Part shown: positions 4,467 through 46,179 of the stretch, in pieces | Layout of the letters: each line of letters begins with the position of its first letter | Numbering within the stretch: the stretch's first letter is position 1 | DNA from: an uncultured Bacteroidales bacterium | GTDB lineage: Bacteria; Bacteroidota; Bacteroidia; Bacteroidales; Muribaculaceae | Reading direction: 5' to 3' | Assembly: GCA_902800715.1 (NCBI GenBank) | Contig: CADCFN010000010.1 | Location: 1-64,000, forward strand | Length of the DNA stretch: 64,000 bases | Program-made: the position numbers and the translations under genes | The notes under the pieces: generated by a model | Database searches by the model: none | What the model saw: the letters and a program-made list of their open reading frames with translations, nothing else | What the model was told of the DNA's origin: nothing

Positions 4467-7268
4467 ATGAAGAATTCGTTACTTTTTCGTCTGGTCGTCC
4501 TGATGGCGGCTGTGATGTGCGCCCTTGGCGCCATTGCCCAAGAGGCCTATGCCTGGTATTCGCCGGGGAGCAATTCGCTGACGTTCTGTTACGACAACGA
4601 GCGCAGTATCTGTGTAGGTACGACCTATGACTTGAACGATGGCTCCATCGAGCCAGGTTGGATAACTGATGGCAACAGTACCTATGTGAAGCATGTTGCC
4701 TTTCACCACTCGTTCGCCGATTTCCGCCCGACGTCGACCTACCACTGGTTCTACGAAATGCGTAACCTTGAATCCGTCACTGGGATGAGGTACCTGAACA
4801 CCAGCGAGGTTACGCGCATGGATTATATGTTTCATGCCTGCTATGAATTGACGAGCATTGACTTGAGCTATTTCAACACAACCAATGTGACAAGCATGTC
4901 GGGCATGTTCTCACGTTGCACCGGTATCACGGAACTTGACTTGAGCACCTTCAACACAGCCAATGTGGAAGCCATGGATTATATGTTCAATGCTTGTACC
5001 AATCTGACAACCATCTATGTCGGTACCCAATGGAGCACAGCAGCTGTGACCAAATCTACTGACATGTTCTATAACTGCACTAGCCTGCTGGGTGGCAAGG
5101 GCACCCCCTACGATGCCGACCATGTGGATAAGGCCTATGCCCACCTCGACGGCGAAGATGGCCTCCCTGGCTATTTGAGCAATATCGTTCCTGGGGGCTA
5201 TGCCTGTTTCACGACGGCGGACAAGACGCTGACGTTCTACTACGATAACCAGCGCAATACGCGCGTGGGCAAGACCTATGACCTGAACGAAGGAAAGAAC
5301 AATTCTGGTTGGAGAAATGATGGCACCAACAACGAAGTGAAGAAGGTGGTGTTTGACCCGTCGTTCGCCGAGGCCCGCCCGACGACCACCTACGGTTGGT
5401 TTTATGGCATGCAGTGGATGAAATCCATCGAGGGCCTTGAGTATCTGAACACCAGTGAGGTGACTCTTATGAATTATATGTTCTATGACTGCAGTGATTT
5501 GACGAGTATTGACTTGAGTCATTTCAACACCGACAAGGTGACACACATGCCTGGTCTGTTCTCCTACTGCCAGAAACTTAAGAGCCTTGACCTGAGCGCC
5601 TTCAACACCGCCAATGTGGAAGCCATGGATTATATGTTCTCTATGTGTGTCAATCTGCAAACCATCTATGTCGGCAGCGGATGGAGCACCGAGGTTGTGG
5701 ACGATTCCGATGATATGTTCTATGGCTGTATGGACCTGGTGGGTGGCAAAGGCACACTCTATACCAGGGACCACATTGGATCAGAATACGCCCACATCGA
5801 CGGCGGTGAGAGCAACCCGGGCTACTTGAGCGATATCACTCCTGCGCCCTATGCATGCTACACGGCCGAGGATGCGACGCTGGTATTTTACTACGATAAC
5901 GTGCGCGGCCCTCGCCCAGGCAAGACCTACGACCTGAACACCGAAAACAACGAAACTGCCTGGCACGCCGATGGCATCAGCGCCAATGTGTCCAAGGTGG
6001 TGTTCGACCCGTCGTTCGCTGAGACCCGCCCGACGACCACCTACGCTTGGTTTAGCGGTATGACGTTGCTTCGACCCATCGAGGGCATGGAGTATTTGAA
6101 CACCAGTGAGGTGACCAGTATGAAGCATATGTTCTATAATTGCAATGAATTGAGGAGCCTTGACTTGAGCCATTTCAACACAGCCAAGGTGACAGACATG
6201 TCGGGCATGTTCTCTCTTTGCGTATATTTGACGAGTCTTGATTTGAGCACCTTCAACACCGCCAATGTGGAAGCCATGGATTCTATGTTCCATGCCTGTG
6301 TCAGTCTGCAAACCATCTATGTTGGCGACGGATGGAGCACAGTGGCAGTGACCGAATCCGAGAAAATGTTCAATGACTGCATCGACCTGGCGGGCGACAA
6401 AGGCACGAGCTACGACCGCAACCACATTGACAAAGAATACGCCCGCATCGACGGTGGCGCCAGCGCGCCGGGCTACTTGAGCTATATCGCGCCCCAGGCC
6501 TATGCCTGCTACACGGCCGAGAACACGACGTTGACGTTCTACTACGACTACTATCGCACTAGCCGAACGGGCACGGGCACGACCTACGGCTTGAACGATG
6601 GCGCTGTCGAGCCTGATTGGGCTAACGATGGCACTAATGCCAAAGTGACCCAAGTGGCCTTCGACCCCTCGTTTGCCGACGTCCGCCCGACGTTCACCTG
6701 CTACTGGTTCTACGAAATGAGGAAACTTGAATCCATCACTGGAATGAACTACTTGAACACCAGCGAGGTGACGCGTATGGATGCCATGTTCAGCCGCTGC
6801 TATAAATTGAGGAGCCTGGACTTGAGCAGTTTCAACACTTCCAATGTGACGGATTTGACCGAGATGTTCAGGGGCAGCGCAGCTCTGCTGACTATCTACG
6901 TGGGAGATGGTTGGAGGCTGAGTGACATGGCTCAGGCGATCTCTAGAAATGTGTTCAATGACTGCACTAGCCTGGTGGGTGGTCAGGGCACGGCCTACGA
7001 TCCCGCCCATGTGGGCGGTGACTATGCCCACATCGACGGCGGCACCGACAATCCGGGCTATTTCAGCGAGAAACCTGCCTTCATCCGTGGCGATGTGAAC
7101 GGCGATGGCGAGGTGACCATCGGTGATGTGACAGCTCTGATTGACTACCTGTTGTTAGGCAAAGCGACAGGCATCAGCCTTGAGAATGCTGACTGCAACG
7201 GAATTGATGGAATCACTATCGCTGACGTGACGGCACTCATCGACTACCTGTTGAACGAGACCTGGTAA
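4467..7268 (+). CDS. BspA-like (DUF285) multi-module surface protein with C-terminal dockerin repeats
   Basis: 933 residues and a close paralogue of the gene at 1230. It has a signal peptide (about 1-25, ending AIAQ) and four modules of about 650 bp starting near 4543, 5195, 5848 and 6500. Each contains DUF285 repeats such as LDLSTFNTANVEAMDYMF and closes with TIYVG..W ... GGKGT ... AHIDGG. Two dockerin-like loops end the protein (GDVNGDGEVTIGDVT and DCNGIDGITIADVT). The second loop carries an altered calcium-ligand pattern (NGIDG for NxDG). It ends cleanly with LLNETW and a stop, with no trace of the FGE domain seen after its neighbour. It is predicted to be exported and surface-attached; the ligand is unknown. 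Confidence 0.88.
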   Translation: MKNSLLFRLVVLMAAVMCALGAIAQEAYAWYSPGSNSLTFCYDNERSICVGTTYDLNDGSIEPGWITDGNSTYVKHVAFHHSFADFRPTSTYHWFYEMRNLESVTGMRYLNTSEVTRMDYMFHACYELTSIDLSYFNTTNVTSMSGMFSRCTGITELDLSTFNTANVEAMDYMFNACTNLTTIYVGTQWSTAAVTKSTDMFYNCTSLLGGKGTPYDADHVDKAYAHLDGEDGLPGYLSNIVPGGYACFTTADKTLTFYYDNQRNTRVGKTYDLNEGKNNSGWRNDGTNNEVKKVVFDPSFAEARPTTTYGWFYGMQWMKSIEGLEYLNTSEVTLMNYMFYDCSDLTSIDLSHFNTDKVTHMPGLFSYCQKLKSLDLSAFNTANVEAMDYMFSMCVNLQTIYVGSGWSTEVVDDSDDMFYGCMDLVGGKGTLYTRDHIGSEYAHIDGGESNPGYLSDITPAPYACYTAEDATLVFYYDNVRGPRPGKTYDLNTENNETAWHADGISANVSKVVFDPSFAETRPTTTYAWFSGMTLLRPIEGMEYLNTSEVTSMKHMFYNCNELRSLDLSHFNTAKVTDMSGMFSLCVYLTSLDLSTFNTANVEAMDSMFHACVSLQTIYVGDGWSTVAVTESEKMFNDCIDLAGDKGTSYDRNHIDKEYARIDGGASAPGYLSYIAPQAYACYTAENTTLTFYYDYYRTSRTGTGTTYGLNDGAVEPDWANDGTNAKVTQVAFDPSFADVRPTFTCYWFYEMRKLESITGMNYLNTSEVTRMDAMFSRCYKLRSLDLSSFNTSNVTDLTEMFRGSAALLTIYVGDGWRLSDMAQAISRNVFNDCTSLVGGQGTAYDPAHVGGDYAHIDGGTDNPGYFSEKPAFIRGDVNGDGEVTIGDVTALIDYLLLGKATGISLENADCNGIDGITIADVTALIDYLLNETW

Positions 7269-43406: not shown

Positions 43407-44102
43407 TTGGGATTTCCGAAGAAATATCTGAATGCATGGAGCCGCCACCACCGTAGTGGCGGCTTCGGCATCCATTCGCCCTTCGCCTACCAGTTCGTGC
43501 GCAACGTCTGGCGTCAGCCCTTGCCCTATTATGCCTACGGGGGAATGCGTCAGCTGCTGAACACCATCAAGGCGGGCACTACTCCGCGGCAGCGGCGTGA
43601 GATGGACCTCATCAGCGAGAAGGAGGCGCGTTTGCTGTTCAGGGTGACCAACTTCTTCAACCCTCAGCGCATCTTGCAGGTGGGCGCCTCCACGGGCGTT
43701 GAGAGTGTCGCCATGCTGGCGGTGAACAGCCAGAGCCGCCTGTACATGTATGACACACAATTAGAGCAAAAGGCGCTGGCAGTGCGTGTGCTGAAAAGCC
43801 AGCTGGATAGGGTAGAGTGCTATGACGATGTGAAAGTGGCTGCCGACGATTTTCTGGCAGGTGAAGCTGCTTCCCGCCTAGCGCTTGTCAATTCCCCTGC
43901 CGATGAAACCGTGCTGAAACGCCTCTTGGACGCCCAATGCGTGCTCGTGCTGCGCAACCTCAACCACGATGAGTCGATGTCAGCCCTTTTCGACACCTGC
44001 TGCCAGCACATGCCGATGGGACAGACCTACACCAACGACAAAATCGCCATCCTCAATCCCAATCCCAAACTCCAGCGCGAGGACTTCCTCCTCTGGCTAT
44101 AA
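43407..44102 (+). CDS. Degenerate SAM-methyltransferase-like protein
   Basis: 231 residues. The frame lies between the YfhO stop (43389-43391, same frame) and 44102, and has no ATG at the front. TTG at 43407 (MGFPKKYLNAWSRHHRSG) is the best start. A Rossmann motif I-like segment ILQVGASTGVESVAML and LYMYD after strand 2 suggest the class I methyltransferase fold. The usual catalytic segments are weak (DDVKVAADDFLAGE, LALVNSPADE), so activity is doubtful. It is co-directional and very close to the YfhO gene, likely co-translated. The function is unknown. Confidence 0.7.
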   Translation: MGFPKKYLNAWSRHHRSGGFGIHSPFAYQFVRNVWRQPLPYYAYGGMRQLLNTIKAGTTPRQRREMDLISEKEARLLFRVTNFFNPQRILQVGASTGVESVAMLAVNSQSRLYMYDTQLEQKALAVRVLKSQLDRVECYDDVKVAADDFLAGEAASRLALVNSPADETVLKRLLDAQCVLVLRNLNHDESMSALFDTCCQHMPMGQTYTNDKIAILNPNPKLQREDFLLWL

Positions 44103-44141
44103 GGGAATCCTGTTTCGCTTCTTTCCTCGATGATACAATAA

Positions 44142-44280
44142 AGAGGCTGTATCATAATTCATGCAAAAAATAACCGCCCTTCGGGCGGGAAATCAAGCAA
44201 ATTTTAATAATTAATTTGCCTAATTTCCCGTGCGAAAGCACGGTTATATTACCATGTCGCAATTATGGCACACCGTCTCT
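44142..44280. repeat. Nested repeat with exact four-way-junction (cloverleaf) fold, between convergent genes
   Basis: Inner element 44170-44247: outer stem ATAACC/GGTTAT (44170-44175, 44242-44247); arm 1 GCCC-TTC-GGGC (44176-44186); arm 2 GGGAAAT/ATTTCCC (44187-44193, 44223-44229) enclosing a second stem GCAAATT/AATTTGC (44197-44203, 44213-44219); arm 3 GTGC-GAAA-GCAC (44230-44241). The arms abut with no unpaired base at the junction. Around it, 44142-44159 and 44261-44280 form an imperfect long stem (AGAGGCTGTATCATAATT with AATTATGGCACACC). It lies between two convergent stops, where it can act as a terminator for both. Confidence 0.8.
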
Positions 44281-44301
44281 TCTAGTCGTTTGATAAATAG
44301 G

Positions 44302-46179
44302 TCACTGGAGTAAGATGTAGTCGATAAGTGCTGTCAAGTCGGCAATGCTGACGTTTCCATTCTTGTCCATATCGGCTGCGTCAAAGTAGATATCTTTATA
44401 TTCGCCCAATAAGTAGTCAGTCAGAATGGTGATATCTTCGATGTTGGTTTGACCGTCATCATTCACGTCACCCAGCAGGGCATGGTCTCCACTGGTATTT
44501 CCCAACTTGTTATCCATCCATTGGAAACGCTCAGCGATGTAGCTTCTCACATTTTGGACTTCGGCGGCATAACTGCCCCAAGCGACTGGGTTTTGATGTA
44601 CTATCGCATTCATGATGTCCCAACGTGTGAAGTTATATGTTTGAGCCTGTTGGAGCAAGGTTTCCAATGAGTCTAAATAGGCAATCATGTTGCCTGCTGT
44701 GAGCCCTTTGTGGCGAGCGTGGCGCCAAATCTCTTTTAATTGTTGGTTTACCTCAGGGTCATAGACTATTAACTCGTCCACAAAGTCGCGCATGTTACCA
44801 GCAGTGCTGCCGTTAGTGCGGTAGATATAATCACCCAAGTCATTAATGGGATAAGTGCGCCTGTCATTGTTAAATGCTAGGTCAAAGTCCCAGACAGGGC
44901 CAGTGTAGATTTTGTCATTGGAACGGTCCTTGTACATGTAAGTGCTCCAATAAGTATCGGTGTTGCCTGATAACTCACCCACAAGAAAATAGCGCAGGAA
45001 AGTGTTTAAGTCAAGATACTGTTTTTTGTTTTGCTCCATCAAGTTGAAATAGTTCTTGATGTAGTTGTATTGAGCAGTGGTGATGTCTTCTTCGTCGGGT
45101 GACTTGATGGTTACGGGATTACCATAGTTTGAAATGAAATATGAGGGCTCATCTGTTGCGTAGGCATCAATTTCAAACAGGTAACCGCCAGTGAGTGCTT
45201 CACCACTGTTGTCCTCGGCAGACATCTCCACGATATTAACACGATTCTTATTGATTTCCACTTGGTCGGTTAGTTGGTAGCAACCCTTGTATTCACCATT
45301 GAGCATCACATCAACAAGGGTGCTGAACGGTGTATAGGTCATCTCCAACTGGCGGCTGATTTCAAAGGCAAGCATGTTGCGCACCAGTGTCTTGTCGCCG
45401 TAGTTGGGTATCAGGGTCCACTTTTTTGCTTTAGCGGGAGAACCCAAAACATTCTGCTTGCTGTCAAATTTAATTCGGTAAGGACGTTTGGGAAATAGAC
45501 GTGAGGCATTACCGCGCTCACGTATTGAGCCTGGTCCTGTCAGTATCTCAGCGTGGCCGTCGTCGCCCAGGACTGTCAATTGGGAAACAATCGGGGTGAC
45601 CTTGTCATTGGGAATCACGCCGTCTAGGGTATGGATGGTCACTGTCGGCAGATTGGTTAAGCGGTAATATTGTGAGTCATCGCCCTCACCGGGATGGCCA
45701 TAGAATTCCAACTCAGCAATGTTGCATCGGGAATCATTGGGTCCCACATAGCGCACATAGCGGAAACCCTTGCTGACTTGCACGTCGGTATAAGACATCT
45801 GTTGAACCGGGCAATTTGAGGTGATCATGTAGAGGGGAACCGCATCCATGAAATCCTCCCTGTTGGCTCCTTCAAACATACCCAGCATCATTCTCCTGGG
45901 ACCATAACTGAAATTGCGCGGCATATAACCAATGCGAGTGATGATGTGTGGCTCGCCCAAGTCAAGCCCTACCCAGGTATAGCTGTTCTCGTAGGAGGCA
46001 AAGAATGTGTTAGGGTTACCGTCAAAGGCATTTGGTTTGATGTTGACGTCAGTGGAACTTGATTGAGTTTCGTAGTTAATGGACAATTCGGTACCGATTA
46101 TGGTTCCTGAAAGCTTTTCGTCAGCTATGGCCCCGAATAGGCATAGGCTGCTCATTAGAATAGTAAATAAGTATCTCAT
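44302..46179 (-). CDS. CotH kinase-family surface protein with discoidin-like domain and dockerin repeats
   Basis: 625 residues. Signal peptide about 1-19. An F5/8-type (discoidin) carbohydrate-binding-like domain spans about 25-165 (NAFDGNPNTFFASY, TWVGLDLGEPHIITRIGYMP, NIAELEFYG). The CotH domain spans about 200-520 with SIRERGNASRLFPKRPYRI, DKTLVRNMLAFEISRQL, YKGCYQLTDQVEINKNRV and the metal-binding motif GPVWDFDLAFN. Two dockerin-like loops end the protein (GDVNDDGQTNIEDIT, DMDKNGNVSIADLT). CotH proteins of Bacillus spores are atypical protein kinases; whether this one phosphorylates anything is unknown, though the key residues look intact. Confidence 0.88.
   Translation of the reverse strand: MRYLFTILMSSLCLFGAIADEKLSGTIIGTELSINYETQSSSTDVNIKPNAFDGNPNTFFASYENSYTWVGLDLGEPHIITRIGYMPRNFSYGPRRMMLGMFEGANREDFMDAVPLYMITSNCPVQQMSYTDVQVSKGFRYVRYVGPNDSRCNIAELEFYGHPGEGDDSQYYRLTNLPTVTIHTLDGVIPNDKVTPIVSQLTVLGDDGHAEILTGPGSIRERGNASRLFPKRPYRIKFDSKQNVLGSPAKAKKWTLIPNYGDKTLVRNMLAFEISRQLEMTYTPFSTLVDVMLNGEYKGCYQLTDQVEINKNRVNIVEMSAEDNSGEALTGGYLFEIDAYATDEPSYFISNYGNPVTIKSPDEEDITTAQYNYIKNYFNLMEQNKKQYLDLNTFLRYFLVGELSGNTDTYWSTYMYKDRSNDKIYTGPVWDFDLAFNNDRRTYPINDLGDYIYRTNGSTAGNMRDFVDELIVYDPEVNQQLKEIWRHARHKGLTAGNMIAYLDSLETLLQQAQTYNFTRWDIMNAIVHQNPVAWGSYAAEVQNVRSYIAERFQWMDNKLGNTSGDHALLGDVNDDGQTNIEDITILTDYLLGEYKDIYFDAADMDKNGNVSIADLTALIDYILLQ

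Follow-up and report, generated by a model that had tools for sequence, protein, structure and literature searches.

The gap-free cloverleaf at positions 44170 to 44247 of the window (the whole 64-kb stretch of Bacteroidales DNA that was analysed) represents one of many copies of a repeat scattered through Bacteroidales genomes. We consider it probable that this two-hairpin repeat, here enclosed in the inverted repeats of an IS1182-type shell, belongs to a MITE-like unit that is moved by a transposase and whose arms are predicted to stop transcription outward. The parts of the element and its two neighbours are as follows.

43407 to 44102, plus strand: upstream neighbour, a 231-aa open reading frame with no Pfam or NCBIfam match, present in 100 of 101 genomes of the genus
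44142 to 44159, plus strand: left shell arm, terminal inverted repeat of shell A, AGAGGCTGTATCATAATT, like the ends of the IS1182-family element C13:99053-100925
44170 to 44247, unstranded: core, a paired-hairpin palindrome (the cloverleaf) with its feet inward, defined by sequence reading, the junction scan and the copies
44170 to 44175, unstranded: outer stem, left strand ATAACC, pairing with 44242-44247; the four inner pairs covary
44176 to 44186, plus strand: arm 1, hairpin GCCC-TTC-GGGC, from sequence reading
44187 to 44229, unstranded: arm 2, AT-rich stem of 7 + 7 bp that links both feet
44187 to 44201, plus strand: left foot, GGGAAATCAAGCAAA (family form GAAAT(T/C)nnnCAAA), from sequence and family scan
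44215 to 44229, minus strand: right foot, reading GGGAAATTAGGCAAA on that strand
44230 to 44241, plus strand: arm 3, hairpin GTGC-GAAA-GCAC, from sequence reading
44242 to 44247, unstranded: outer stem, right strand GGTTAT, pairing with 44170-44175
44261 to 44280, minus strand: right shell arm, terminal inverted repeat of shell A, AATTATGGCACACCGTCTCT
44302 to 46179, minus strand: neighbour, a 625-aa CotH-kinase / dockerin / F5_F8_type_C protein, convergent with the 231-aa frame

Structurally, the four-way junction is as exact as the first-pass annotation had described it, with every pair Watson-Crick and no unpaired base where the helices meet, and the element does lie between a convergent pair, the 231-aa frame on the plus strand and the CotH/dockerin frame on the minus strand. 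Arm 2 consists of a lower stem (GGGAAAT, 44187-44193, with ATTTCCC, 44223-44229), a 3x3 internal loop (CAA/CTA), and an upper stem (GCAAATT, 44197-44203, with AATTTGC, 44213-44219) closed by a 9-nt loop. Arms 1 and 3 each extend to a 6-bp, terminator-like form, CCGCCC/GGGCGG followed by TTATTTTTTG on the minus strand and CCGTGC/GCACGG followed by TTATATTACC on the plus strand, and the shell arms pair as an outer imperfect hairpin (44142-44159 with 44261-44278, 78% complementarity). The GNRA tetraloop ascribed to arm 3 is real in the window copy, whose loop is GAAA, but arm-3 loops in relatives include GATA, GTTA, GCTA, GTA, GAA and TTTA (49 of 65 listed cores used), and it was dropped as a meaningful feature because these loops are not conserved. 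Positions 673-734 of the window hold a degenerate second copy, in which the decayed left half, CGCATCCCTATGGGTGAGAAATAAAACC, comes after a shell-A-like AAGGGTGTGTTATAATT and no right half was seen.

That such a figure is a chance palindrome has a probability of practically nil. With limits of at least 5 bp for the outer stem, 4 for the arms and 7 for the inner stem, a scan for perfect gap-free four-way junctions picked out a single location within the 64-kb window, and 20 first-order Markov resamples, together 1.28 Mb, contained no such junction; under relaxed limits there were five matches in the window, all at the cloverleaf, and one in total over ten resamples. The existence of many homologous copies is what already refutes the chance reading. 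Energetically, the four-way cloverleaf is not the predicted minimum-energy fold: the energy models favour one long bulged hairpin for the window copy by 1.4 to 5.3 kcal/mol, with −33.0 versus −30.6 or −29.4 kcal/mol as RNA and −21.1 versus −15.8 or −19.7 kcal/mol as DNA, depending on the dangle model. Branch migration can shift the cloverleaf junction by 2 bp. For three other copies, DNA folding predicts two hairpins and a central stem side by side, without the outer stem.

In the genome from which the window comes (hereafter the home genome), a BLAST search with a 161-base query returned 53 rows at E ≤ 10, which by our own count represent about 20 places, and exact left arms occur 19 times, versus none for the reversed control. 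Beyond it, a pattern for the whole core matched exactly 75 times in 74 stretches of named genomes, all from uncultured organisms labelled Bacteroidales, Prevotellaceae, Muribaculaceae or Porphyromonadaceae, and several named for goat, sheep, roe deer or water buffalo samples; in a set of 75 cores examined for their gene context, 72 do not overlap any open reading frame of at least 90 aa. Of the 101 genomes of the genus, 64 (with the home genome among them) matched a covariance model, R1, as did 34 of the 48 of good quality; at most 41 candidates were scored per genome, so that copy numbers are lower bounds, and several palindromes account for two rows, one per strand. Divergent versions, with other stems and the same feet, occur in the genomes that the model matches only weakly. 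None of the five listed genomes from other genera of the same family gave a match. Across the order, at E ≤ 1e-5 and with at most 8 candidates scored per genome, at least 9 of 393 genomes matched, which is likely an underestimate, and similar elements were found in at least 8 of the 393 genomes, from five other families. The multiple copies that the first-pass annotation had proposed to look for are present, as exact left arms in the home genome, exact cores in named genomes, and model matches in the genus. A collection of viral sequences gave no exact core match, and carriage by phages was set aside on that count.

The family is built from a half-unit, a GC hairpin followed by the foot GAAAT(T/C)nnnCAAA, and two such halves stand foot to foot across an AT-rich spacer. 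Among 212 units picked by the GAAAT foot, the next base is T or C in 206 and the tenth is C in 156. The two arms are unlike in 104 of 106 distinct pairs (the exceptions are in loci L196 and L197), a set in which 72 GCCC/GTGC pairs include ones picked by exact pattern and in which some pairs come from arrays where units pair in more than one way. A perfect long palindrome would be cut or lost by deletion, which may be why the arms stay unlike; PMC3733652 also puts this forward for REP heterodimers. For 62 listed units no strict partner lies closer than 200 bases, and some of them have one at a distance of 200-5000 bases. The one such case inspected, that of the home genome, turned out to be a core interrupted by an IS1595 element, and the notion of an autonomous long version, with two distant units around a gene, was rejected.

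Covariation was measured on A2, an alignment of 33 hand-picked diverse cores (31 distinct) made by MAFFT without structure, in which 23 rows had been found with R1 and so lean towards structure. A2 scored 0.351, versus 0.167 ± 0.012 after shuffling (none of 500 shuffles reached it) and at most 0.110 when slid, with 72 cells changed on both sides versus 24.0 in shuffled alignments. Pairs changed on both sides occur in all four helices, arm 1 being paired in only 76.6% of cells. With these changes and the additional copies, the outcome that the first-pass annotation had named as refuting its reading did not arise. RNAalifold predicted arm 3 only from A2, and the pattern-selected alignment A1 showed weak covariation, because its members were chosen mostly by exact pattern. 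Outer and inner pairing are expected if the two halves descend from one ancestral unit, so the covariation speaks for paired units and not for a working junction. A-tracts in the feet recur at about 11, 20 and 22 bases (77, 73 and 53 pairs versus about 21, 17 and 16 after shuffling); as evidence of bent DNA we give this phasing little weight, because the largest peak, at 9 bases, was built in by the search and there are further peaks at 4-5 and 17.

Strong predicted folding of 44130-44290 as RNA (z = −6.06) and the covariation are also what a regulatory or 3′-UTR RNA, conserved for its RNA function, would display. This option, which the first-pass annotation had listed, found no support in Rfam: the window has no match, and the best sub-threshold hit scores 20.2 bits against a gathering threshold of 100. 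We regard it as very unlikely, given as well that loops are not conserved, that many of the palindromes score on both strands, that sites differ between near relatives, and that there is no recurrent partner gene except a loose cluster of large secreted proteins. This cluster (27 of 128 loci) was the largest when neighbouring genes were screened as possible movers, among 437 open reading frames near cores at the 128 loci; no transposase was recognisable by eye in the 22 listed clusters of at least three loci, and a recurrent neighbour was rejected as the mover.

Shell A suggests a transposase as the likely mover of the unit in the window. Repeats like its arms (GAGGSTGTGTCATAATT, at most 3 mismatches) number 53 in the home genome versus 7 control matches, and comparable ends enclose the IS1182-family transposase gene of C13:99053-100925 (NF033551, 462 bits), the one full element whose terminal inverted repeats shell A matches. 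The outer hairpin is thus more than the terminator-like repeat with which the first-pass annotation had compared it. Twelve flank pairs from the home genome, eleven with a core and one around a core-less hairpin, showed by eye no consistent target duplication, so the case for mobilisation in trans is built on the similarity of the ends to that one element. From these sequences, an IS1182-family transposase would likely move the whole MITE-like unit in trans. Core-less shell A also exists, as hairpins of 27-35 bp (L122, C4:76361-76395; L125, L126 and L123). Locus L031 carries at 4961-5621 (C13:40960-41620) a tandem array of shell-A cores with a period of about 240 bp and a second hairpin between copies, and at L190 1480-1620 a core sits in a third, different inverted repeat (GGGCAGTGCGCCACAATCTAAGCCTG), possibly a shell A that has diverged.

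Other genomes carry this core within a second, unrelated shell, B (GGCAATGATATAG..GTTGGCCC), which shares the terminal inverted repeats of full IS1595 elements; transposases with shell-B ends match NF033547 at 196 and 221 bits (L127 and the home-genome element C13:39302-40990). Exact target duplications of 8-9 bp, several of which are A or T runs, flank 20 of 39 shell-B copies versus 23 of 1482 mismatched control pairings, and with one mismatch allowed the counts are 28 of 39 and 173 of 1482. An IS1595 transposase is proposed to act in trans on shell B. The home-genome IS1595 element (308-aa transposase; L031 3303-4991) interrupts the AT arm of a core and has the 8-bp duplication TTAATAAA on both sides. 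Relatives of its transposase are encoded on seven viral contigs (L333-L339), and for two of these relatives the identity is 91% across most of the length. Two IS1595-type MITEs in another genome (L128 and L129, genome G005) have a different palindromic interior, GAACCCTGCGGGGCTAATGCG.., which recurs inside a home-genome core copy, C17:27479-27940.

Functionally, a consensus terminator scan found both arms of the window copy, each reading outward (3 sites in the region versus 0.6 expected), and GC hairpins with a T tract in each direction are what a bidirectional terminator would present. In the main family, at least 5 T occur in the first 8 outward bases at 71 of 144 ends versus 3 at positions 25-32, and the T-rich tails are weaker in the divergent families (14 of 70 versus 4). 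Convergent genes flank 9 of 17 copies with shell A (the window copy among them) versus 29 of 157 controls (p = 0.003); these counts, like those of T tails, are of related copies and not of independent events. Copies in the IS1595 shell have no such bias (5 of 38), shell-less cores are too few (3 of 9), and for all cores together (16 of 63 versus 29 of 157) the bias is not clear, so that a general preference for convergent genes was dropped and is claimed for shell A only. The bias of shell A together with the outward T-rich tails makes a two-way terminator role likely, and we therefore predict that the shell-A form is likely a portable two-way terminator. If so, insertion at the 3′ ends of genes would be tolerable and the core could stand in for the local terminator.

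The inverted-repeat shells, the shell-B target duplications, the T-rich tails and the convergent bias of shell A would also suit a plainer account, in which a two-way terminator with no mobility of its own is cargo that IS1182- and IS1595-type MITEs carry by chance. What weighs against it is how the cores are distributed over shells: among 114 classified, 30 have shell A on both sides, 22 have shell B on both sides, 22 are mixed or one-sided, and 40, a few of them near contig ends, have neither shell on either side. Some other inverted repeat does flank 6 of those 40 (matched in quality by 0-1 of 100 shuffles), a point in favour of cargo, but the architecture is also seen in another five families of the order, where shells were judged by sequence reading. 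We rate the cargo account as somewhat unlikely. The core's occurrence in the IS1595-type shell, and with no recognised shell, likewise qualifies the earlier suggestion of a repeat inserted in a terminator hairpin.

Evolutionarily, the sites differ among relatives. When the joined flanks of 12 home-genome elements were searched for in eight relatives, five core-bearing elements were absent from the matching site, and at each of the five a different short palindrome, judged by eye, stands in at least one relative; one of these replacements is the GCCGTGGC repeat that flanks the RAYT-like gene of the home genome. At three further sites (C3:206135, C22:13309 and C17:24464) the flanks are separated in the nearest relative, G077, by gaps within which the model matches, so these look filled there too; the hairpin-only element C4:76361 is conserved in two relatives (L285 and L278), and the remaining three queries found one flank or repeats only. 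At the window site itself, G077 has neither the element nor the CotH gene, and the more distant G098 keeps the convergent pair, about 14 bases apart, and lacks the element. Sites without the element, which the first-pass annotation had proposed to seek, were thus found in relatives. Three home-genome copies (L036, C22:13314-13512; L039, C13:3685-3905; L040, C13:94151-94372) carry the same nested palindromic insert of about 60 bp at the same point, with TTTCCC repeated, and are either copies of one another or hosts of a site-specific insert.

With many copies, compensatory changes and element-free sites in relatives, the earlier proposal of a mobile, REP/BIME-like repeat in a terminator-like hairpin fits best, as a matter of likeness. 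The likeness is considerable: the units are extragenic, high-copy hairpins in inverted pairs with a spacer (the 106 distinct pairs), with unlike partners and in clusters, and TnpA_Y1 subclass 2.6, as the available part of PMC6006769 describes it, occurs mostly in Bacteroidetes and is flanked by structures without GT[AG]G. Strict membership fails on tag and on partner. The foot is GAAAT, with CAAA usually from the tenth base, in place of GTAG/GTGG or CGTC, and the 60 loci with RAYT-type genes show no association with the unit beyond what chance would give. A formal GAAAT-foot hairpin occurs in 4 of 30 Y1_Tnp loci, versus 1 of 30 controls (the window itself), and with a CAAA foot and a model match in 2 (L222 and L236), about what we would expect from some 40 units per 3 Mb, by our own estimate. 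Of the first 30 NF047646 loci, which are mostly subclass-1.2-like and sample subclass 2.6 poorly, none has the unit, and R1 gave one weak match (L273, E 0.0016), on that locus's own GGGACGGTTC repeats. The RAYT-type genes of the genus (L247-L276) have repeats common to both flanks in 18 of 21 loci of testable length, for example GGGACGGTTCTTTTGTCCC, and the RAYT-like gene of the home genome is flanked by GCCGTGGC..GCCACGGC repeats instead of GAAAT units. We thus hold it quite unlikely that this is a true REP/BIME, moved as single-stranded hairpins by a cognate RAYT such as that of subclass 2.6, and with no link beyond chance in two sets of 30 loci the RAYT was rejected as the mover. The home-genome gene just mentioned (L118 1021-2037, C5:74914; see also L277) scores 47 bits against NF047646, under the 80-bit cut-off, and has GCCGTGGCnGGAGCCACGGC repeats on both flanks, the same repeat being present in a relative at a site that holds a cloverleaf in the home genome.

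The usual criteria for classifying REP-type repeats are the tag, GTAG or CGTC, and, in the GTAG case, a partner RAYT. The GAAAT repeat is a relative of the known REP repeats with a signature of its own, and its different tag, the lack of a partner in our searches and its shells from two unrelated IS families could reveal another route by which short palindromes spread. At its boldest, a suggestion that we make tentatively and put somewhat below an even chance, GAAAT would define a third major class of palindromic repeats with a tag, present across Bacteroidales: mobile two-way terminators made of unlike hairpins that meet in a four-way junction, moved by an enzyme other than RAYT. They would enter IS ends repeatedly and travel from there as MITEs, with two or more unrelated transposases moving them. 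Should every copy end transcription in both directions, then copies gained or lost would rewire the ends of genes in many Bacteroidales. In a literature search that included sequence strings, we recognised no description of the GAAAT-foot repeat.

Among known systems, intrinsic bidirectional terminators are alike in their GC hairpins with outward T-rich tails and in the convergent position seen in the window, whereas in the GAAAT repeat a paired AT arm links the two hairpins and there are many dispersed homologous copies. MITEs of IS1595 and IS1182, and the BrickBuilt MITEs of Porphyromonas (described in PMC4596501, in the part available), share its non-coding nature, its terminal inverted repeats like those of full IS elements and, for shell B, its target duplications; the GAAAT interior differs as a conserved paired-hairpin module that is common to two unrelated shells and also occurs outside them. 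TnpA_Y1 subclass 2.6 (RAYT group 5), likened here by its description in the available part of PMC6006769, has Bacteroidetes hosts, hairpins without GT[AG]G and copies elsewhere, but its repeats flank the tnpA gene and those of the GAAAT family do not in the tested loci. A further comparison is with REP, BIME and REPIN repeats, for which the available part of PMC3733652 reports a heterodimer preference in most REP families, REP dimers inside larger palindromes (Anabaena and Halothiobacillus) and CGTC repeats in Bacteroidetes without transposase association, so that unlike partners, dimers in palindromes and the absence of a transposase are not in themselves new. Both kinds of repeat are short inverted pairs of hairpins, mostly extragenic and clustered, with unlike stems and a variable spacer; what sets the present family apart from them, as far as that source describes them, is the foot GAAAT(T/C)nnnCAAA 3′ of the hairpin, in place of GTAG or CGTC, and the shells of IS1182 and IS1595 type.
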